Assembly: GCA_026394775.1 (NCBI GenBank)
Contig: JAPLZY010000031.1
Span: 1-33,684 of the forward strand
Origin: Candidatus Zambryskiibacteriota bacterium
GTDB lineage: Bacteria; Patescibacteriota; Minisyncoccia; Phycocordibacterales; DATDWN01
Length of the DNA stretch: 33,684 nucleotides
Direction: 5' to 3'
Positions 5,036 to 33,341 of the stretch are shown piece after piece (positions within the stretch are counted from its first letter, which is position 1; each line of letters begins with the position of its first letter). Made by a program: the position numbers and the translations under genes. The notes beneath the pieces are model-generated. The model was given only the letters and a program-made list of their open reading frames with translations. It made no database searches and was not told where the DNA came from.

Positions 5036-5578
5036 CTACCAAGTTACTCCTGCTCCACGGTAAATTTTCCAAGACCATATTCCTGCACCATCAACAATTG
5101 AAGCATTTGAGCCACCATCTCGAGCCGGATCAACAAGCTCTGGATATGTGCTATAGGTAAAAGGGGATGTTCGCAAATCAGCAACATCATGGTCTAAAAG
5201 TGCGTAATTTACCCCATCTGATGCATATAAGTAACAACTTGTATTCGCTGCTTTATCCATTCCTGGGTCACTTGGCATATTACTCATATAGTTTGGAACA
5301 AGTCCCGGGATCACAGCACTTGGCGCATATCCACCCCAAGCAGAGCATTCACTTCTCCAAAATCCGGATGTTGTTGGGTACGATTTGCTTACCGCATAAT
5401 AAAATTCTAATGCATTTTGAATATTCTTTATATCTGTCACGCGTTTTGAAACACGAGCTCTTTCCTGAGACTGGGCAAATGATGAAAACGTAACTGCACT
5501 CAAAAGCCCAATGATTGCTATTGAAACGAGAAGTTCTACTATAGTAAAACCTTTTTTTAAGTTATTTTTTTGAAACAT
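5036..5578 (-). CDS. Type IV prepilin-like protein
   Basis: A 180-aa pseudopilin-like protein. A short basic leader (MFQKNNLKKG) is followed by the prepilin peptidase site and hydrophobic helix GFTIVELLVSIAIIGLLSA; cleavage would be after the Gly and the mature protein starts with Phe, Glu at +5. The globular part has a WGG..PSAVIPGL segment and paired cysteines. It is a clear paralogue of the next upstream gene: both end with PELVDPARDGGS and IVDGAG. Only 12 nt separate them, so they form an operon. It probably contributes to a type IV pilus for attachment or DNA uptake, as reported in CPR bacteria. Confidence 0.9.
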   Translation of the reverse strand: MFQKNNLKKGFTIVELLVSIAIIGLLSAVTFSSFAQSQERARVSKRVTDIKNIQNALEFYYAVSKSYPTTSGFWRSECSAWGGYAPSAVIPGLVPNYMSNMPSDPGMDKAANTSCYLYASDGVNYALLDHDVADLRTSPFTYSTYPELVDPARDGGSNASIVDGAGIWSWKIYRGAGVTW

Positions 5579-5590
5579 GTATTTTTAATA

Positions 5591-6136
5591 CTACCACACC
5601 CGTGCTCCAGGTGAAGAAACTTTCCATGCCCACACTCCTGCACCATCAACAATCGAAGTGCTCGAGCCACCATCTCGAGCTGGGTCAACAAGCTCTGGAT
5701 ATTTTAAGTAAGTTGCTCCAGAATTTCCCGCTTCAAGCTCAGTAACCCAGTGATCTAAAAGTGCATAGTCAGTACCGTTTGAAGCATAAATGTAGCAATT
5801 GCTGTTTGAGTTGGCCGCAGTTTGAGGATCAACAGGTATTGTATTTATATATGCTGGAGCAAGGCCAGGAATAACTGCATTAGGACTCAGTCCTCCCCAA
5901 GCTGGACAGACACTTGACCATGTTTGACCAACAGATACTGGATACGACTTATTGTTTGCATAATACCTCTCAAGAGCACCTTGAACCTGTTTCAAATCTG
6001 CTATTCGCTGCAACACACGAGCACTTTTTCTTGTACCTGCAACACCAGAAAGCACAAGAGTCGACAAAAGCATGATAATAGAGATGGAAACCATCAGCTC
6101 TACAAGAGTAAAACCTTTTGTGCGTAGTTTAAACAT
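5591..6136 (-). CDS. Type IV prepilin-like protein (paralogue)
   Basis: 181 aa with leader MFKLRTKG and the N-methylation/peptidase motif GFTLVELMVSISIIMLLS. It shares the whole architecture of its downstream neighbour, including WGGLSPNAVIPGLAPAYI and the PELVDPARDGGS tail, consistent with tandem duplication. Its ATG overlaps the stop of the small membrane-protein gene upstream (TAATG), implying translational coupling. The globular domains have diverged between the two copies more than the ends, so they may be major and minor pilins with different partners. Confidence 0.9.
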   Translation of the reverse strand: MFKLRTKGFTLVELMVSISIIMLLSTLVLSGVAGTRKSARVLQRIADLKQVQGALERYYANNKSYPVSVGQTWSSVCPAWGGLSPNAVIPGLAPAYINTIPVDPQTAANSNSNCYIYASNGTDYALLDHWVTELEAGNSGATYLKYPELVDPARDGGSSTSIVDGAGVWAWKVSSPGARVW

Positions 6137-12845: not shown

Positions 12846-13301
12846 TTATATGCTAACACAATAATTGTAGATCGCACCCCCTGCACAGCCAGAATAGTTA
12901 TACGACTGACCGGTTGATTGTTCTAGGTTTGCACATAATGTAAAATTACCCGCTGCATTGTTGACATTGTAGTACAAATAATCACCCACTTGGTTTGATG
13001 TAGTTGGATCAAGTGGTACTGACTTTATATACGTTGGACTAATATCTGCCTGGAAACTTGGCCCCCAACTGTTTGTTGGATTTGAAATATATGTACACCA
13101 CCCACTTCCATTTCGTGGCAAATATCCAAATGCGTCAAAGTACATAATGGCTGCTCGCTGTATTTGACCAATATCTTGTTTTCGTTTTGCATCTCGAGCT
13201 TTAGCTCGAGCTTGATTAAGAGAGCCAAGCACTACTGAAGAAAGCATCCCAATAATTGCAATCACAACAAGTAATTCAATAAGAGTAAATCCTTTCTTCA
13301 T
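12846..13301 (-). CDS. Type IV prepilin-like protein (third, distinct)
   Basis: 151 aa with a minimal leader MKKG and the classic FTLIELLVVIAIIGMLSS helix, followed by basic ARAKARDAKRKQDIGQIQ, typical of type II/IV pseudopilins. The globular domain contains four cysteines and is Tyr/Asn-rich. It is not a close paralogue of the 5036-6136 pair. It heads a transcript with rpiB and rpe, an unusual mixture of surface and sugar-phosphate genes. Its -10 box overlaps the stop codon of the GAPDH gene just upstream. Confidence 0.9.
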   Translation of the reverse strand: MKKGFTLIELLVVIAIIGMLSSVVLGSLNQARAKARDAKRKQDIGQIQRAAIMYFDAFGYLPRNGSGWCTYISNPTNSWGPSFQADISPTYIKSVPLDPTTSNQVGDYLYYNVNNAAGNFTLCANLEQSTGQSYNYSGCAGGAIYNYCVSI

Positions 13302-14443: not shown

Positions 14444-15469
14444 CTATTCTGTAGCTTGCAATACCGGTACTTCTTCTTTCTTTTTAGTCTGATGTGCATG
14501 ACCATCTACTTCATAACTCGTGTTTTGTGCTTCAAAGAAGTTTACGAGTTCAAACACATCGGTCGCAGTCGACATCCATTTTGCTGGGTTTGTCGCTCCG
14601 TAATGCTTTGGAAGACCGAGCTCTTCGAGTCTTCGGTCTGCTACATACTGTACATACTGATTTACATAATCAGCATTAAGTCCGAGAATTCCATTTGGGA
14701 AAAGATCTCTGTTGTAGTCAACTTCTCGATCTACTCCCTCAATCACAATATTTCGAATCTCTGCTGCAAACTCTTCAGTTAAGAGCTCTGCATTTTCTTC
14801 CAAGATATTGTGGATCAAATTCATCCCGAACTTGAGGTGAAGTGACTCATCTCTGAGTACCCAGTTGATCATTGAGCCAAAGTTTCGAAGTTGATTTCGC
14901 TGTCGGAAAGAAAGAGCCACCATGAAGCCCGAGTAAAACCAGATCCCTTCCATTACAATGTTTGTAGCAACCAGGTTTCTGATAAAATCTTTCTTCCCTT
15001 CTACAGTCTCAATATCAAGCGAGTCTTCAGTCATTCGCTTCATGTACTTGTTGATATAGTTTTCTTTTGCAAGCATTGATGGCACTTCGAGGTGAAGTCC
15101 AAAAATAGTCTCACGGTCAAAAGGAAATGTTTCAAGTACGTATTCAAAAGCCACACAGTGGTTTGCCTCTTCCCACATTTGCTTTGCAAGATAAAGGTGA
15201 CACTCAGGAGACTTGATATACGGATACACTCCGAGCGCAAGCGAACGGTTTACGATAAGTTCTGCAGGGTTGAAAAACGCCATCAGAAACTTTACTGCGT
15301 GTTGCTCGTCTGGTGTCATCTTTTCAAAATCCTGCAAGTCTTCGTTGAGCGCAATCTCGTGTGGAAACCATGTGTTTCGCACTGCTTGATTATAGAGATC
15401 ATACGCCCACTTATACTTAATAGGGTGCAAGTTCATATCTTCAGGTGATGCTTTTCCAATTAATGCCAT
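14444..15469 (-). CDS. nrdB: Class I ribonucleotide reductase beta subunit, class Ic-like (Phe in place of radical Tyr)
   Basis: Generates the oxidant that starts ribonucleotide reduction in NrdA. The six carboxylate/His metal ligands are E70 (FFNPAE), E101 and H104 (MWEEANH), E174 (VMEGIW), E208 and H211 (RDESLH). The residue four after H104, where the radical Tyr stands in class Ia/Ib, is Phe108. The first ligand is Glu rather than Asp. As I recall the Chlamydia trachomatis class Ic protein (E89, E120, H123, F127, E193, E227), every ligand spacing matches. A Mn/Fe cofactor is therefore likely. The gene follows nrdA after a 190-nt spacer with a large hairpin. Confidence 0.93.
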   Translation of the reverse strand: MALIGKASPEDMNLHPIKYKWAYDLYNQAVRNTWFPHEIALNEDLQDFEKMTPDEQHAVKFLMAFFNPAELIVNRSLALGVYPYIKSPECHLYLAKQMWEEANHCVAFEYVLETFPFDRETIFGLHLEVPSMLAKENYINKYMKRMTEDSLDIETVEGKKDFIRNLVATNIVMEGIWFYSGFMVALSFRQRNQLRNFGSMINWVLRDESLHLKFGMNLIHNILEENAELLTEEFAAEIRNIVIEGVDREVDYNRDLFPNGILGLNADYVNQYVQYVADRRLEELGLPKHYGATNPAKWMSTATDVFELVNFFEAQNTSYEVDGHAHQTKKKEEVPVLQATE

Positions 15470-15539
15470 ATGTTTTTTGTTTAATGAATAATTGACTTTT
15501 TTGTCTTAAATTTTAAGGAACCATGTAAGCACTTTGTGA

Positions 15540-15658
15540 GACATCCAGATTTGAGCAAAGTTCTAGGCGGACTAGAAAAATAATTTGAGCCTGCCTGAGT
15601 GTGCAGGTGAGAATTATTTTTTGAAGTCCAACAACGAAATTTGCCAAATATGGATGTC
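15540..15658. repeat. 119-nt imperfect palindrome between nrdA and nrdB
   Basis: The element starts directly beside the nrdA stop codon. Its outer arms GACATCCA/TGGATGTC, middle arms around ATTTG/CAAAT and GGACT/AGTCC, and inner arms AAAATAATT/AATTATTTT closing on GCCTGC/GCAGGT pair almost continuously over ~55 nt each side. No run of T follows on the minus strand, so it does not look like a simple terminator. It may be a mobile palindromic element or an mRNA structure that separates or tunes nrdA and nrdB expression. The 65-aa frame across it is an artefact. Confidence 0.7.
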
Positions 15659-15659
15659 G

Positions 15660-18464
15660 CTACTGGCAACTGTCGCACTGGGCTCGTTCAGCGGGGTCTA
15701 TCGGACAAACTTTCGCAGCGTCTGAAGATTGGACAACAGCTGCAGGCTTCGCTACATGCACTTTCTCTTCTTCAAACGATGCCTGCATAACCGGACTCAC
15801 TGGCTCAGGCATTTGTATAGCAGACATACTCTGATACCCTGTGGACACCACTGGTGCTGGTGCCACTTTCGCAAAACCACCTACAGTCGGTTTGACCGCT
15901 TGTGTGCCAGGTGTCTGCACGGTATACACTGGGGCATTTTGTAATATTTTTTCTGCTGTTACCAACGCTTCACTTTCTTTCACTACTATTGTTGGTACTG
16001 CTCCTGGTACAACCACCGGCACTTCGACAGACGCATCGAGAGATTTCTGTAATGGCAGTGCAAATGCACCACTCTGTTTGGTAAGCCCAAGTGCCCCGAA
16101 ACCACTCTTACCGATCTGTTGACCTTTGTTTACAGTCACAGTCGACTGCTCTGCAGTATGTCGAGGCTTCATGTGCAAGTAGTAAGTAGTCTTCACGCCT
16201 TTCTCCCACGCTGTACTGTATATCTTCATTGTCTCGTCAATATCGCGAGTTTCAAGATACATATTTCGAGAAAGTCCCTGGTCTACCCATTTTTGTGCTC
16301 GGGCAGCTACCTCGATATACGCATAGGGCGATGTCGTAAATGAAGTCTTATAAATATCTTTGATATGCTGTGGGATACCTCCAATATCTGCAATATCTCC
16401 CTGTCGTTCTACTATCTCATCTTTTACTTTTTCCCAAATACCCATGTTCTTCAAATCTTTCACCAAGTTATGGTTGATATCAATATATTTTCCTGAAATC
16501 TTGTTTCGAGAAAAGATCTGCGCAAAACGTGCGTCGATACCTGGAGTTGTTGCAGCCACAAGACCAATGTTTGCATTAGGAGCCACCGCCATAAGTGTCG
16601 CATTTCGTATACCCATTTTCACTTTCGCTCGCAACACATCCCAATTCAGTCCTTTGTGCTTACTTTCTTTATCCACAGTCAACGGTCGTCCTCGCTCTGC
16701 TTCTACTTTTGCAAGTGTGTCATAAGGTACTTTTCCTTTTGACCATTCTGAACCTGCAAAATTTGTGTAGCTACCGCGCTCTTGTGCCAAGTTTGCAGAC
16801 TCGTCTATTGCCATGTATGAGATAAACTCAAAGATACGATCAGCAAAATTCCATGCATGTTCAGAGTCGTATGACATACCGAGTTGTTCTATCGTATCTG
16901 AAAAGCCCATCACCCCAAGACCAATCGCTCTGTTTTCTTTGTCAGACTTTGCCGCCTCAGGGATCGGAAGAACATTGATATCGATGAGGTTGTCGAGCTG
17001 TCGTATCGCAAGACGTACAGACTCTTCAAGCAAAGACCAGTTGATCTCTTTGTTTTTAATATGTGCTGCAAGATTGAGTGATGCCAAGTTACATACCGCT
17101 ACATTGTCTTTATCTTGAGGAAGACAGATTTCAGTACACAAATTACTCATGTGAATTGTCCCTGTATTGTTGTTGAGTGCTCGAAGATTTACGGTGTCTT
17201 TCCATGTAAGCCATGGGTGTGAAGTGGTCTGGAGTGCCACCAAGATCTGTCGATACTGTTCTTTTGCCGGTACTTTTTTAAATGTTCGAAGCTTTCCTGC
17301 ATCCGCCATAGCTACGTATTCAGCATAGCGTTTTGAAAACGCTTGTCCATAGAGTTCATTTAAATCTGCAGTCTCTGCAGGGTCAAACATATACCACTCT
17401 GCTCCATTGTGCACTCGAGTCATAAATTCATCTGACATCCACACTGCTGTGTTGGCAGTTCGCATTCGCATATAGTCGTCTCCTGCATTGTGTTTCCAGT
17501 CAAGAAATTCAGGAAAATCAATATGCCAATTTTCCATGTAAAAACAGAGCGCACCTTTTTTCTTACCTCCACGCTGGATCGCACGGATCGCTGTATCAAT
17601 GATTTTAGCAAACGGAGTAGGGCCTGTTGAAATACCGTTGTTAGATTTCAGCGGTGAGCCTGATGCTCGAAGCTTGGTGACTGATGCCCCAATTCCTCCA
17701 GAACCTTTTGAAAGCATCATTACATCTGACACTGACTTTGCAATATGAGCCATGTCGTCGTGGATTTCAAGAAGATAGCAGTTTGAAAGAGCTGGATTAA
17801 TAGTCCCCGCTGCGAGGTTTGTCGAGCCTCCTGCTACGTACTGAAGCTTTGACATTTTGTTGTAAAACTTGATCGCCATTTCTGTCGGACTAGCTTCATT
17901 GTATGCCAGTCCCATTGCAATGCGCATAAAGAAAAACTGAGGAGTCTCCCGTGGAGTCTGATTCATATTTTTCATTGCATATCGAGAAAGCAGACTGTCG
18001 AGGCCGGCGTACTGGAAAAGCTCGTCTCGCTCCACCTTGAGTGCAGAAGCGATTGTTTCGAGGTTGAATCGGTCTTTCATTGCAGGATGCAGTCGTCCAT
18101 CTGCCACACCTTCGGCGATAAACTGCAAGAAAGCTTGCTTATGCTTGAGTTCCAAATCTGCCGCATCGTCTTTATTGTATTCACCAACCACTCGTCGATA
18201 CACTGTCTTCAAGAGAAGTCTTGTTGCTACAACATCGTATTCAATATCAGAGATGATATTTTGCACCGCTGCATTGATCGTCGCCTGATCCATCTCGTCT
18301 GTCGTAATACCATCGTAGAGCGTGAGTCTCGTTTCTGTTGCTATTTGAGTGACCTTTGCTACAGGATCAAAAAGCCCTTTACATGCTCGTTCGATAGATC
18401 GGTTGATCTTGTCTGCATTAAAGGGTGCCATAGTGCCGTCGTGTCGTTTGATTGAAATATCCAT
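15660..18464 (-). CDS. nrdA: Class I ribonucleotide reductase alpha subunit
   Basis: Reduces ribonucleoside diphosphates to deoxynucleotides. An ATP-cone regulatory domain occupies residues ~1-95. The redox cysteine pair is C229 (SNCYL) and C459 (CNLAS). The active-site triad N441, C443, E445 is in NLCTEICLP, and the radical-transfer tyrosines are in GVKTTYYLHM. A long Pro/Val/Ala-rich linker (~770-915) leads to the C-terminal CDSC (930-933) that re-reduces the active site. The linker makes the protein (934 aa) longer than E. coli NrdA (~760 aa). Partner nrdB lies downstream. The ATP cone indicates dATP feedback control. Confidence 0.96.
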   Translation of the reverse strand: MDISIKRHDGTMAPFNADKINRSIERACKGLFDPVAKVTQIATETRLTLYDGITTDEMDQATINAAVQNIISDIEYDVVATRLLLKTVYRRVVGEYNKDDAADLELKHKQAFLQFIAEGVADGRLHPAMKDRFNLETIASALKVERDELFQYAGLDSLLSRYAMKNMNQTPRETPQFFFMRIAMGLAYNEASPTEMAIKFYNKMSKLQYVAGGSTNLAAGTINPALSNCYLLEIHDDMAHIAKSVSDVMMLSKGSGGIGASVTKLRASGSPLKSNNGISTGPTPFAKIIDTAIRAIQRGGKKKGALCFYMENWHIDFPEFLDWKHNAGDDYMRMRTANTAVWMSDEFMTRVHNGAEWYMFDPAETADLNELYGQAFSKRYAEYVAMADAGKLRTFKKVPAKEQYRQILVALQTTSHPWLTWKDTVNLRALNNNTGTIHMSNLCTEICLPQDKDNVAVCNLASLNLAAHIKNKEINWSLLEESVRLAIRQLDNLIDINVLPIPEAAKSDKENRAIGLGVMGFSDTIEQLGMSYDSEHAWNFADRIFEFISYMAIDESANLAQERGSYTNFAGSEWSKGKVPYDTLAKVEAERGRPLTVDKESKHKGLNWDVLRAKVKMGIRNATLMAVAPNANIGLVAATTPGIDARFAQIFSRNKISGKYIDINHNLVKDLKNMGIWEKVKDEIVERQGDIADIGGIPQHIKDIYKTSFTTSPYAYIEVAARAQKWVDQGLSRNMYLETRDIDETMKIYSTAWEKGVKTTYYLHMKPRHTAEQSTVTVNKGQQIGKSGFGALGLTKQSGAFALPLQKSLDASVEVPVVVPGAVPTIVVKESEALVTAEKILQNAPVYTVQTPGTQAVKPTVGGFAKVAPAPVVSTGYQSMSAIQMPEPVSPVMQASFEEEKVHVAKPAAVVQSSDAAKVCPIDPAERAQCDSCQ

Positions 18465-19252: not shown

Positions 19253-20884
19253 CTATATAGTGTATCCGAGGCTTTGCAGAGCTTCTCGTGTGTGAGGGAA
19301 AATATGCTTTGCTTCCCGTATGCGTCTAAACGCTTTACTTTCTTCGAGTGACTTTTCAATGAGTGGGTTGACCCCTGTCAAAAGCACCTGCTTTCCTTGA
19401 GACTCAATGAGGTTTACAATCTCTTCGAATGCATCCACTCCATCGAGGTCGATAAAGAAGAGTTCTCTCATACGCAATACGACATGCTCGTATTTTGCAC
19501 TGAGCTTGGTTTCAAATCGAGAAATATGTGCTTGAGCATTTACATACGCAAGCTGACCTTTGATCGAGTACACGAGCGTATGGCAGTCTTTACACAAATC
19601 ACTGTCTTCAATATCATCTCCAAACACATGGTCTGTCATTTTCTTTTCAGTGTTGTTGACCATGAGCTCAAACTGACCCTTGGAAAGTTTTTCTACAAAG
19701 AGCAAAAGTGAGATAGCCGTACCGAACAAGATTCCCACGATCGGGTCTTCATAGATAGTGACGAATGCCACAAGGATTGAAATCCCAAAACTTTTCTTGT
19801 CGAGTGTAAACATGCGAGAAAAGTGTACTATCTCCACCATACGTACCGCTACGAAAACCAAGATAGCTGCCACTACTGCAAGTGGAATATATTTAAAGTA
19901 AGTTAAGAAGACAAAAGAAATAAGCGCGATACAGATACTCGAAACTGTCGCCGACATCTTGTCAGTTGCCCCTGTCTTTACGTTTAAAGAAGTACGGGCA
20001 AGTGCTGCGGTCGCAGGGATACCACCCATGAGACCAGAGACTGCATTTGCAATACCAAGACCAAACACTTCTTTACGTGGATTGTATTTACTTCCTGTCA
20101 TACCATCTGCAATCTTTGCTGAGATCATGGTCTCAAGTACCGCTACCACAGCTACCGTAAGTGCAGGTAGGAAAAGTGAGGAATCGAGGAAAAAGTGAAA
20201 GGGCTGGAAAAGCTTTGGGGCAATATCTGCATACTGCATGCCCAAAGTCTTGAGCTGGAAAGGTAATGCTCCTGTGGTTGAAAAATATCCCAAGAGAATA
20301 CCGATCGGTGTAAGCGTGATTGCTCCAGGAAGTTTTGGAGTAAGCTTTAAGAGTGTAAACAGACCAACTAAGAACAAGAGGAAAATCCCAAGTGTTGGTA
20401 GAGAGGTTTGAGAAATATGTGAAAACGTCTCAAGTACATTTTTAATAAACTCCGGATGCTTTGTAAGGCCTGAGAGACCAAATGCAAAGTTCATTTGATT
20501 GAGGCCGATAATAAAGGCAACACCGAGAGTAAAACCATGGACAGTCGAAGCTGGGATAAAGACAAGATAGCGTTCGAGTTTGAAGATATAGGAAATAAAA
20601 ATAAACACTGCTGAGACGATAGCCATCATCGAGAGAGCATCTGCTCCATGAACAAGTGCATACGCTGCCAAAATACCTGACAGCGCCCCTGTAGGACCTA
20701 CAATATTAAACTTACTTCCTCCAAAAAAAGAGGCCATCAAACCCGCCCAGATAGCGGTAATGATACCTGCGGTCGGCGTACTGTTTGATGCCACCGCGAG
20801 AGACACTGAAAGTGGTATAGAAACCAAAGCTACTGTTAAACCCGACTGCCAATTGGCCTTCATTTTCGAAAGTATTGATTGCAT
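19253..20884 (-). CDS. SulP-family anion transporter with STAS domain
   Basis: An integral membrane transporter, probably for sulfate, bicarbonate or another anion. The start at 20884 (543 aa) is the ATG two codons into the frame, whose first codon is TTG. About 11 hydrophobic helices span residues ~12-405, including the SulP signature region ASNSTPTAGIITAIWAGLM and FGGSKFNIVGPTGALSG. A cytoplasmic STAS domain covers ~440-540 (FIDLDGVDAFEEI). The linker contains CKDCH, an uncommon CxxCH motif. It is single-gene, with an inverted-repeat region upstream. The substrate cannot be told from sequence; a bicarbonate role is possible. Confidence 0.9.
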   Translation of the reverse strand: MQSILSKMKANWQSGLTVALVSIPLSVSLAVASNSTPTAGIITAIWAGLMASFFGGSKFNIVGPTGALSGILAAYALVHGADALSMMAIVSAVFIFISYIFKLERYLVFIPASTVHGFTLGVAFIIGLNQMNFAFGLSGLTKHPEFIKNVLETFSHISQTSLPTLGIFLLFLVGLFTLLKLTPKLPGAITLTPIGILLGYFSTTGALPFQLKTLGMQYADIAPKLFQPFHFFLDSSLFLPALTVAVVAVLETMISAKIADGMTGSKYNPRKEVFGLGIANAVSGLMGGIPATAALARTSLNVKTGATDKMSATVSSICIALISFVFLTYFKYIPLAVVAAILVFVAVRMVEIVHFSRMFTLDKKSFGISILVAFVTIYEDPIVGILFGTAISLLLFVEKLSKGQFELMVNNTEKKMTDHVFGDDIEDSDLCKDCHTLVYSIKGQLAYVNAQAHISRFETKLSAKYEHVVLRMRELFFIDLDGVDAFEEIVNLIESQGKQVLLTGVNPLIEKSLEESKAFRRIREAKHIFPHTREALQSLGYTI

Positions 20885-20926
20885 ACACAAACGATTAAAA
20901 TAATAATTTTTTACTTAAGAGCTTTA

Positions 20927-26879: not shown

Positions 26880-28130
26880 CTATCGAAGCTTGGTAATATC
26901 TCTGGGAAAAAAGAGAGCCCTGGTCCACTCAAACATAATCCCCCAGCGTTTGTTCCATGAATTAAATTTAAATAAATAGACTGTTCGCCAGATCCACCAC
27001 ATCAGTCTTCCTGAAAATGCCATACCGAAAATAGTACCTACTGCATACCACTGACCCAGAGAAACCAGAGTTCCTTTGGATGCATAGGTAAATGCTTTGA
27101 GAGGTCGGTTTTTTAGAGATGCAATAATGTTGTATGCCACCACCTCTGCTTGTTGGACAGCCACTTGAGCAACTGTAGGGTACCCTTTGCCATCTGGAGA
27201 TTCCACTAAAGCTACGTCTCCCAAACCAAAAACATCAGCATGCTCTACAAGAGCAAGCTCTTTTGTTACTTTGACATGCCCCATCGCCATCAAAACCTCT
27301 TCTTTAAATGGCGGAAGTATCGGTGTCACTCCGGCAGACCAGAAGATAAAGCGAGCAGAGAGCATCTCATTTGGAGAAAAAAGTATTTTGTCTTTTTGCA
27401 CTTCTGTTACCGGCATTCCGAGATGAAGCACCACACCCAACACGTCGAGGCGTTTTTTTGTCTGTATGCGCAATGACAACGGAAGCATACTCAAAAGCTC
27501 TGGGCCGGTGTTGAGCAAATGCAGGCTGTAGTCGCCTTCTTCGATACGAGTGCTTCCCTTAAAATGTCTGGTGTATAGTTCACAAGTAAACTCTGCAAGT
27601 TCGGAGACCATCTCCACACCGGTCGCACCTCCACCCACCACCACAAAAGTGAGCTGTTTTTTACGCTCAAGAGTGTCTTCCATGCACGCTGCATCTTCAA
27701 AAGCATCAATGATTTCTTCTCGAATTGAGAGAGCGTCTGAAAGAGTTTTGAGCACCCGTGTGTACTCTTGCGCACCAGGGATATTGTAATAGTTGGTCTG
27801 TGCACCGGTCGCCACCACAAGCCTGTCGTAAGACATCATGTGTCCATCAACAGAAAGATTTTTATCTGCCAGATGTATCGCATCTACAACACCCTGGATA
27901 ATACGCACACCTGTCCCTTTAAAAATTTCTCTTAAAGACTCAGTAGTCGAATATGAACCCAGTCCCCCTGTAGCTACTTCGTGCAAAAGCGGAGTGAAAA
28001 GAAAATAGTTTGTCTTGTTTATGAGCGTAACTTCGATCAAACCTTGTTTTACAAAAGGAACAAGCATTTGTGCCGTATACACTCCACCAAACCCCCCTCC
28101 GACAATAACTACGTGTGATTTTTTCATCAT
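26880..28130 (-). CDS. ndh: NADH dehydrogenase type II (NDH-2)
   Basis: A single-subunit flavoprotein predicted to oxidise NADH and reduce a quinone at the membrane without pumping protons. FAD-binding GGGFGGVYTAQ lies near the N-terminus, the NADH-binding GGGATGVEMVSELAE near residue 170, and the second FAD motif ADVFGLGDVA near 300. The C-terminus is hydrophobic and aromatic (~360-400), as expected for membrane association. The start at ATG 28130 (416 aa; 28127 also possible) follows a TATACT box. It is divergent from the sigma-factor gene. Quinone use in a CPR organism is noteworthy; another acceptor is possible. Confidence 0.9.
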   Translation of the reverse strand: MMKKSHVVIVGGGFGGVYTAQMLVPFVKQGLIEVTLINKTNYFLFTPLLHEVATGGLGSYSTTESLREIFKGTGVRIIQGVVDAIHLADKNLSVDGHMMSYDRLVVATGAQTNYYNIPGAQEYTRVLKTLSDALSIREEIIDAFEDAACMEDTLERKKQLTFVVVGGGATGVEMVSELAEFTCELYTRHFKGSTRIEEGDYSLHLLNTGPELLSMLPLSLRIQTKKRLDVLGVVLHLGMPVTEVQKDKILFSPNEMLSARFIFWSAGVTPILPPFKEEVLMAMGHVKVTKELALVEHADVFGLGDVALVESPDGKGYPTVAQVAVQQAEVVAYNIIASLKNRPLKAFTYASKGTLVSLGQWYAVGTIFGMAFSGRLMWWIWRTVYLFKFNSWNKRWGIMFEWTRALFFPRDITKLR

Positions 28131-28139
28131 ATGTTTTTT

Positions 28140-28145
28140 AGTATA
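28140..28145 (-). promoter_or_regulatory. -10 box of ndh, leaderless type
   Basis: TATACT on the minus strand, 9 nt before the ATG at 28130. A weak TTGTGC lies about 19 nt upstream. Confidence 0.5.
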
Positions 28146-28202
28146 ACAAGAAAACACTCCAGGTGCACAAAAACGCAATTTTTACGCAAGACCAATTTCA
28201 GT

Positions 28203-32024: not shown

Positions 32025-33311
32025 CTACAGCTTCCAAACCTTGAGAGTTCGGGCTTCGTCGGTATTACACCAAACGAACTTCCCGACACCCTCAATACGG
32101 ACGTTGTCGTACCGCGACACATTATCTATGTCACAATACACAGTCACTCCTTCCGCTACTAACACATGCTTTTGTCCATCATGGGGCGTTGTGTTGATGA
32201 GTTTTACCTCGTTGCCTAGCTCGGTTGCCCGAGCCAGAACCTCCTTTAAAAAGAGGTCTTTCTGCTCGTACGGCCTGTTGAAGACCGCCATCAGTCCGAC
32301 CGGGCAATAGCCCAGCATCTGCACATCGACCAACATCCCGTTTTCATAGTCGAACATCAGTCGACCATCCACGGTGAATGTTTTAGGTGCGAGCCATTCC
32401 AGACCTTTGGTAGGGTCAAGGAGCGCCTCGGCGAACTTTTTCTGTTCGCCTCCCAATATTCCGATCTGCGTCTGGTACGGGAGATTATTAAACCCCCGTG
32501 CCACTGCGTCTCGTTGTTCGGGACGCAAATAATACTGCCCCATCAACTTTAAGTTGCCCTCATGAAGAAAAATTGAGAATTTTTTCTCCCCTATTTTGAC
32601 CCCACAGGGATCTGTGCTCATTTGAACCCGGGAGGCGACCCATGCCCCCAGTGCACCAGCCTCTTGGGCTTCCCGCATTTCCAGAGTTGCCCCTGGACCG
32701 AATAAGTGCTCGACCATTTTCTGGCCGAGCTCCTTGACGTTGGTTTTATCTGTGACGTACACTTGCCCCACGAATGGAGCAAGCGAACTTCCTCCAGTTG
32801 TTCTCCAGCCAAAGGTAAACGCGTAGGAAAAATTCGAAATTTTTCCTTGTACCTTTTCCCCATAACAATGCTGGCTCTTGCGCCAGCTCTCACCCTCGCT
32901 CATCACTTTTTTTCCGTCCGTGGCCCATTCCCAATTTGCGTGGCCGCTACTAAGGTAGCAGCCGAGATTCTCTTTCTCTTCCGTAATCTCCAACGGCATG
33001 CCGCTGGAGATCTTAATATTAGAAAGCGGAACCTCACAAAGACGTAACACGCGCCGGATCGGGTCCGCCTCCTCGGAGGCTGGTTTGACCCGGCGCCCAC
33101 TCTCGGAGCTGAGAATATACTCACCATCCTTTATCATCTGGAGGTGATATGTCTGGTTACCTGTACGCGAAAACCTTACAACCGAGGGGCACTCCTCTCC
33201 ACGAAGGAAGAAAAACGTTCCCATCCCTACGGGATAGTGAAAGGCATACTTCACCTCTTCACCATTCATCAAAACACATCCGAGCCGAACATTTACATTA
33301 AGGTTAGACAT
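32025..33311 (-). CDS. Large orphan protein of unknown function, 428 aa
   Basis: I do not recognise a family. The start at MSNLNVNVRLG (33311) has AAGGAG 8 nt upstream. The protein looks soluble and cytoplasmic, with mixed alpha/beta character, many Gly and aromatic residues and no signal peptide, membrane helix or clear catalytic motif. G+C looks close to half, above the core genes. It is transcribed alone, has its own terminator and a ~300-nt upstream region with hairpins, and lies next to the IS30-type transposase. Together these suggest acquired cargo. It resembles the 1927-2517 gene in organisation, not in sequence. Confidence 0.8.
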   Translation of the reverse strand: MSNLNVNVRLGCVLMNGEEVKYAFHYPVGMGTFFFLRGEECPSVVRFSRTGNQTYHLQMIKDGEYILSSESGRRVKPASEEADPIRRVLRLCEVPLSNIKISSGMPLEITEEKENLGCYLSSGHANWEWATDGKKVMSEGESWRKSQHCYGEKVQGKISNFSYAFTFGWRTTGGSSLAPFVGQVYVTDKTNVKELGQKMVEHLFGPGATLEMREAQEAGALGAWVASRVQMSTDPCGVKIGEKKFSIFLHEGNLKLMGQYYLRPEQRDAVARGFNNLPYQTQIGILGGEQKKFAEALLDPTKGLEWLAPKTFTVDGRLMFDYENGMLVDVQMLGYCPVGLMAVFNRPYEQKDLFLKEVLARATELGNEVKLINTTPHDGQKHVLVAEGVTVYCDIDNVSRYDNVRIEGVGKFVWCNTDEARTLKVWKL

Positions 33312-33341
33312 GATAGATTCTCCTTTTCCCGTTAACGCCAC

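Follow-up and report, generated by a model that had tools for sequence, protein, structure and literature searches.

Class I ribonucleotide reductases (RNRs) can be told apart by two positions of the beta subunit, the radical-tyrosine position and the first metal ligand, the pair being Tyr/Asp in classes Ia and Ib, Phe/Glu in class Ic and Tyr/Glu in class Id, as summarised by Ruskoski and Boal (PMC8463856). In the Phe/Glu enzyme of Chlamydia trachomatis (R2c), the activation electron is delivered through Tyr222 and Trp51; for R2c, stability to H2O2 and activation by it are reported, and a nitric-oxide hypothesis has been put forward (PMC4118035). In class Id, superoxide acts as the activator (PMC8463856). 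The R2c enzymes were found to be polyphyletic by Lundin et al., according to the summary of that work in PMC3824934, and the enzyme of the actinobacterium Tropheryma whipplei was given as class Ic by Torrents (PMC4009431). With respect to the architecture of the catalytic subunit, Burnim et al. presented the splitting of domains as a strategy that is distinct to class II (PMC9669993), and the NrdJa/NrdJb pair shows that a separate chain can perform disulfide exchange (PMC4520616).

A class I beta subunit with a Phe/Glu signature

The window analysed here is the whole stretch of 33,684 nucleotides, and the features discussed below are collected in Table 1. The plus-strand reading of 14444-15469 was ruled out by the stops it contains. 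The minus-strand product matches Pfam Ribonuc_red_sm (E=9.7e-77) and reaches a score of 358 with NCBIfam NF007186 (PRK09614.1-5), against a curated cut-off of 237; it also barely meets the cut-off of NF005550. The neighbouring alpha subunit scores 1223 with NF005101 (PRK06539.1), against a curated cut-off of 988. Both NF007186 and NF005101 are named generically as RNR, the metal subclass being no part of the name.

Table 1. Positions in the window of the two RNR genes and of their functional residues.
Feature	Position	Strand	Remark
RNR beta subunit (NrdB/R2), Phe/Glu class Ic-like	14444..15469	minus	341 aa, ATG start
Tyr319 codon	14513..14515	minus	C-terminal radical-transfer Tyr, Y356-type
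His211 codon	14837..14839	minus	metal ligand
Glu208 codon	14846..14848	minus	metal ligand
Trp203 codon	14861..14863	minus	at activation-relay Tyr222 position of C. trachomatis (alignment)
Glu174 codon	14948..14950	minus	metal ligand
Phe108 codon	15146..15148	minus	radical-tyrosine position; equivalent to Phe127 of C. trachomatis and Tyr122 of E. coli
His104 codon	15158..15160	minus	metal ligand
Glu101 codon	15167..15169	minus	metal ligand
Glu70 codon	15260..15262	minus	first metal ligand; equivalent to Asp84 of E. coli and Glu89 of C. trachomatis
Trp34 codon	15368..15370	minus	radical-transfer Trp; equivalent to W48 of E. coli and W51 of C. trachomatis
RNR alpha subunit (NrdA/R1)	15660..18464	minus	934 aa; ATP-cone, all-alpha domain, catalytic barrel
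C-terminal redox-active CxxC arm of alpha	15666..15677	minus	CDSC, residues 930-933, fused
Tyr761-Tyr762 of alpha	16179..16184	minus	equivalent to Y730/Y731 of E. coli, radical path

By measuring the distances along E70-E101-H104-F108-E174-E208-H211, we obtained spacings of 31/3/4/66/34/3, which are those of C. trachomatis R2c; in E. coli NrdB, which carries Asp and Tyr, they are 31/3/4/82/34/3. A sequence-only reading of this stretch had claimed that Phe108 takes the place of the radical tyrosine, that Glu70 takes the place of the usual Asp ligand and that the spacings equal those of the chlamydial Mn/Fe enzyme. All three claims hold, and both substitutions are invariant across the 104 rows of the clade to which the window belongs (102 complete rows plus two that end before Tyr319, one of them being the window locus again). 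As Trp203 shows the same invariance as Phe108 and Glu70 over these 104 rows, neither chance nor a sequencing error explains the signature. More broadly, in a column table of 150 betas, the set W34-E70-E101-H104-F108-Y110-E174-F178-W203-D207-E208-H211-Y319 is present in 102/102 complete rows of the window clade. The chlamydial-type rows (C. trachomatis, 6y2n, haloarchaeal plasmids, Aureimonas and a separate Patescibacteria group) are Phe/Glu with Tyr or Phe at position 203, this residue being Phe in the chlamydial-like betas of Patescibacteria, and the remaining rows are Tyr/Asp, or Tyr/Glu for class Id.

Then, we compared the beta subunit with the described subclasses. First, it is class Ic-like by its signature, with Phe at the radical site, Glu as first ligand, the five other ligands at the same spacing, the radical-transfer residues leading toward alpha (the W51-type Trp and the C-terminal Tyr) and an intact alpha partner. 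Its best PDB relatives by sequence are C. trachomatis R2c (E ~4e-73) and 6y2n. An AF2 model predicted from a 30-row clade alignment (pLDDT 74, pTM 0.77, against pLDDT 41 for the single-sequence version) likewise has C. trachomatis R2c as its top 13 PDB fold matches, followed by 6y2n. With the chlamydial protein (1syy, 4d8f, 4m1i) the window beta shares the radical-site Phe, the Glu ligand and the spacings, as well as equivalents of W51, F197, Y129 and the C-terminal Tyr. However, identity is only 38%, and Tyr222, an R2c-conserved relay residue (PMC4118035) that is no part of the Ruskoski and Boal class definition, is not kept but replaced by Trp203 throughout the window clade. Thus, of the earlier label “class Ic-like”, the published signature and the closest solved relatives stand, whereas a specific grouping with the chlamydial enzymes does not, the window beta falling into a clade of its own.

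Second, alignment and phylogeny placed no Tyr at the radical position and gave no grouping with class Ia, Ib or Id. Classes Ia and Ib have the Tyr/Asp pair where the window has Phe108/Glu70, and no NrdI was found in the window genome, an absence that speaks against a system of the Ib type activated by NrdI. The class Id enzymes (NrdBi; Leeuwenhoekiella, Flavobacterium johnsoniae) share Glu as first ligand but keep the Tyr and have a Lys near the site, which in the characterised subgroup lies four residues past the Glu, where the window has Asn74; at 20-22% identity, they are the most distant group from the window beta in the tree.

Third, we considered whether the protein might be no RNR subunit at all but an R2lox-type oxidase, or else a metal-free class Ie enzyme. 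R2lox proteins likewise lack the radical Tyr and bind Mn/Fe (PMC3824934), but they have no C-terminal Tyr, no alpha partner and a small residue at the F197 position. The window beta has a conserved Tyr319, an adjoining conserved alpha and Phe178 where R2lox has Ala; since Phe178 is the counterpart of C. trachomatis F197, the substrate-channel residue of R2lox is missing, and the R2lox models score far under their cut-offs. Class Ie enzymes have replaced metal ligands and a modified Tyr radical, in contrast to the six intact ligands and the missing site Tyr found here. Either identity is therefore highly improbable.

The alpha partner and the genome

The alpha gene is on the same strand, 190 nt upstream of the beta gene, and the two genes adjoin each other clade-wide. 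No Rfam match was obtained in the 190-nt gap between them (15470-15659), and neither an Rfam RNA element nor a tRNA was found in the whole window. The catalytic landmarks of alpha are complete, with equivalents of C225, N437, C439, E441, C462, Y730 and Y731, and the C225-, C439-, C462-, Y730- and Y731-type residues are intact in 37/37 alphas compared.

The window genome is Parcubacteria-type, with 752,968 bases and a completeness of 99.7%. Its searches gave one PF00268-type gene and one PF02867 gene, and neither a second PF02867 gene nor NrdD was found in it, so that the alpha/beta pair appears to be the organism's sole RNR and should be functional. The genome also contains one Fe/Mn superoxide dismutase (SOD), and searches for a heme-copper oxidase found none.

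Several other ORFs of the window were recorded alongside. The region 26880-28178 encodes a type II NADH dehydrogenase-like protein, and 19253-20890 a SulP-family transporter that has a STAS domain, in this genome without heme-copper oxidase. Three pseudopilin-like ORFs, two of them adjoining, were picked out by visual inspection of the translations in 5036-6136 and 12846-13301; their N-termini carry GFTLVELMVSISII-type motifs. Two minus-strand ORFs, 1927-2517 (196 aa) and 32025-33341 (438 aa), have no Pfam match, and the 196-aa ORF has no NCBIfam match either.

Proposed storage and transfer of the oxidant

Since all six ligands are kept while no oxidisable Tyr is present at the radical site, the stored oxidant is most likely the metal cluster. 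Modelled on C. trachomatis R2c, O2 or H2O2 would oxidise Mn(II)/Fe(II) to Mn(IV)/Fe(IV), and one electron, passing here via Trp203 and Trp34, would yield a stable Mn(IV)/Fe(III) state, which would reversibly oxidise the alpha cysteine. The route would run through Trp34, Asp207 and Tyr319 of beta to Tyr762/Tyr761 of alpha and on to the active-site Cys443, and after each turnover the CxxC arm at the C-terminus of alpha would reduce the Cys229/Cys458 disulfide again. Together, these features suggest, with good though not full confidence, that the two genes encode a functional aerobic class I RNR with a metal-centred oxidant, probably Mn/Fe.

Several observations count against Mn/Fe. The relay Tyr222 is replaced by Trp and identity to C. 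trachomatis is low; Tyr/Asp enzymes stand between the window and chlamydial clades in the best trees; no Nramp transporter, the importer type sought, was found in the window genome; and a Glu first ligand also occurs in the Mn-only class Id. The last point would fit an Mn-only oxidant, a Mn2(IV,III) cluster like that of class Id, with superoxide or peroxide as the activator. Such a cofactor does not need a tyrosyl radical (PMC8463856), and the SOD in the genome makes exposure to reactive oxygen possible. Against it, class Id retains the Tyr and, in its characterised subgroup, the Lys, whereas the window has Phe108 and Asn74, and its betas share 20-22% identity with the window beta and lie farthest from it in the tree. 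We consider this reading quite improbable. A di-iron enzyme, with Tyr110, Trp203 or Trp34 as stored or transient radical and with the Phe/Glu pair not tied to Mn/Fe, also seems unlikely. Trp203, which is redox-active and specific to the clade, lies five positions ahead of Glu208, and the rules linking structure to metal are far from resolved (PMC4118035); yet C. trachomatis R2c also has equivalents of Tyr110 and Trp34 while its metal cluster stores the oxidant, and its high activity is obtained only with Mn/Fe (PMC4118035). A metal-centred and probably Mn/Fe oxidant thus remains our preferred reading.

The earlier reading had further proposed that a tyrosine-free, “superoxide-resistant” cofactor would suit an organism meeting oxidants. 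We found no support for resistance to superoxide, as the R2c literature speaks of peroxide stability and of the nitric-oxide hypothesis (PMC4118035). In the window's family, SOD is present in 15/17 genomes, whether or not an RNR of the window type is present.

Distribution of the window clade

The named relatives closest to the window, with 79-87% beta identity, are Parcubacteria-type MAGs (Taylor-, Zambryski-, Nomura-, Staskawicz- and Kaiserbacteria). At 63-67% identity, the clade also includes Saccharibacteria, Actinomycetota (Microbacteriaceae, Demequinaceae, Nocardioidaceae, Jiangellaceae and Dermacoccaceae) and one Ktedonobacteraceae MAG, and it is therefore not confined to candidate phyla. 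The actinomycetotal members (Demequina, Salinibacterium, Microcella, Flexivirga, Aeromicrobium, Jiangella) share the Phe/Glu/Trp signature and the neighbouring alpha with the window. The Tropheryma whipplei enzyme may belong to the same clade. Both subunits of the Ktedonobacteraceae MAG (L125) group with those of Saccharibacteria, and its detached arm (see below) is 69 aa long; horizontal transfer or a mis-binned contig would account for this placement.

Within the window's phylum, a PF00268 beta is present in 57/380 genomes, and these betas are of at least five kinds: the window clade, the chlamydial-like Phe/Glu enzymes, the Tyr/Asp neighbours of the latter, other Tyr/Asp enzymes and ATP-cone-bearing Tyr/Glu enzymes of class Id. 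In the window's family, 8/17 genomes have the beta together with the same alpha, and one further genome has NrdD. In six others (G001, G004, G008, G011, G012 and G015), we found no convincing PF02867 or PF13597 (class III) RNR, although completeness is 92% or more for G001, G004 and G011. The RNR-negative genomes possibly rely on imported deoxynucleotides.

Origin of the Phe/Glu state

By building beta trees with the diagnostic columns removed, we recovered the window clade with a support of 100/100 or 100/99, and its support was also 100 in the alpha tree. The Phe/Glu enzymes of C. trachomatis, haloarchaea and Patescibacteria of the chlamydial type fall together with patescibacterial and proteobacterial Tyr/Asp enzymes (97/97 or 94/78 for beta, 93/95 for alpha), while 6y2n and Aureimonas nest apart, among proteobacterial Tyr/Asp enzymes. 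Placing all sampled Phe/Glu enzymes in one clade was rejected (AU p=0.0028, log-likelihood 60.7 worse). This polyphyly agrees with that of R2c reported by Lundin et al., as far as it is summarised in PMC3824934.

The window clade stands apart from the chlamydial clade in the best beta and alpha trees. When 6y2n and L073 were left out, however, the AU test did not reject a union of the two clades (p=0.149 for beta, 0.085 and 0.070 for alpha, and 0.136 for the concatenated alpha and beta, the last being a weaker test with no outgroup). Because the best trees separate the two clades while their union is not rejected, a separate origin of Phe/Glu in the window clade is likely and goes no further than that. 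A single inheritance shared by both clades, their apparent separation being a tree error, is a real but less probable possibility: it fits the AU values of the restricted tests, and it runs against the supported grouping of the chlamydial enzymes with Tyr/Asp enzymes and against the rejection of a single origin for all sampled Phe/Glu enzymes.

A detached CxxC arm in relatives of the window

In the window, the CxxC arm is fused to alpha, unlike in its Saccharibacteria and Microbacteriaceae relatives. By comparing alpha ends, we found that the terminal CxxC is missing from every examined clade alpha of Saccharibacteria, of Microbacteriaceae and of the Ktedonobacteraceae MAG, and that the active-site cysteines are retained in those arm-less alphas that are within the alpha alignment. 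A small nearby ORF ends in the missing CxxC motif. In Saccharibacteria-type loci (L112, L113, L117-L119, L122, L144, L145, L148, L172-L184), it encodes 57-59 aa of the form MNASTIINDxMTLEEKLAAIDAAM...APLDPADLTMCEGCQ; in Microbacteriaceae loci (L120, L124, L126, L128, L129, L132, L135-L142, L146, L149, L151-L153), it encodes 21-33 aa, MN...YFVPVDPMDDLQCDSCQ or MN...VPVDPMDDLQCDSCQ, and often overlaps the alpha stop as ATGA. Across all clades and outgroups, with several genomes counted twice via two loci, 92 alpha rows have a fused arm, 32 a detached one and 2 neither; the detached case L019 is probably a frame break and not genuine.

Three observations bear on the arm ORF as a gene. First, the 57-aa ORF is present in 13/380 Patescibacteria genomes, which are exactly the 13 genomes of a Saccharibacteria family (f34) with a window-type beta, and in 0/367 others. 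Second, its median pN/pS is 0.257, with values below 1 in 120/120 pairs (16 distinct ORFs). Third, no Pfam or NCBIfam model recognises it. Assembly error was rejected as the cause of the missing arms because named isolates (Salinibacterium amurskyense, Microcella alkalica and Aurantimicrobium minutum) show an arm-less alpha. Programmed frameshifting was rejected as well: relative to alpha, the ORFs occupy each of the three frames, with offsets of -1 to +84 nt; they have start codons of their own and, in the case of Saccharibacteria, also G runs resembling Shine-Dalgarno sequences; and three Saccharibacteria genomes have the ORF downstream of beta. On the alpha tree two changes are needed: either the arm was detached twice, or it was detached once and fused again once.

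Like the detached arm, the Pseudomonas aeruginosa NrdJa/NrdJb system carries its redox Cys pair on a separate chain (PMC4520616); it is however a class II enzyme with a large folded NrdJb, whereas the class I arm is only 21-59 aa long. The open-access literature that we searched yielded no description of a class I arm in detached form, which does not in itself prove novelty.

Implications

The evolutionary setting of this locus is other than the sequence-only reading implied, and more interesting. The full proposal would be that the window clade is a second independent invention of a Tyr-free (Phe/Glu, probably Mn/Fe) class I enzyme, with a Trp relay, and that its alpha arm was detached in Saccharibacteria and Microbacteriaceae as an exchangeable 21-59 aa mini-protein, the first in class I; taken as a whole, we regard this as evenly balanced between right and wrong. 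The Phe/Glu signature treated as “class Ic” comprises more than one lineage, and the culturable Actinomycetota of the clade offer accessible, non-pathogenic material for asking whether Mn/Fe use has arisen repeatedly and how the metal is chosen. If true, the detachment of the CxxC arm would have made a diffusible mini-redoxin out of what is otherwise a swinging arm within the same chain. Finally, Parcubacteria are usually described as fermentative. A Parcubacteria-type genome in which class I is the only detected RNR would depend on O2 or H2O2 for its synthesis of DNA precursors, and this makes the oxygen relations of the organism testable.
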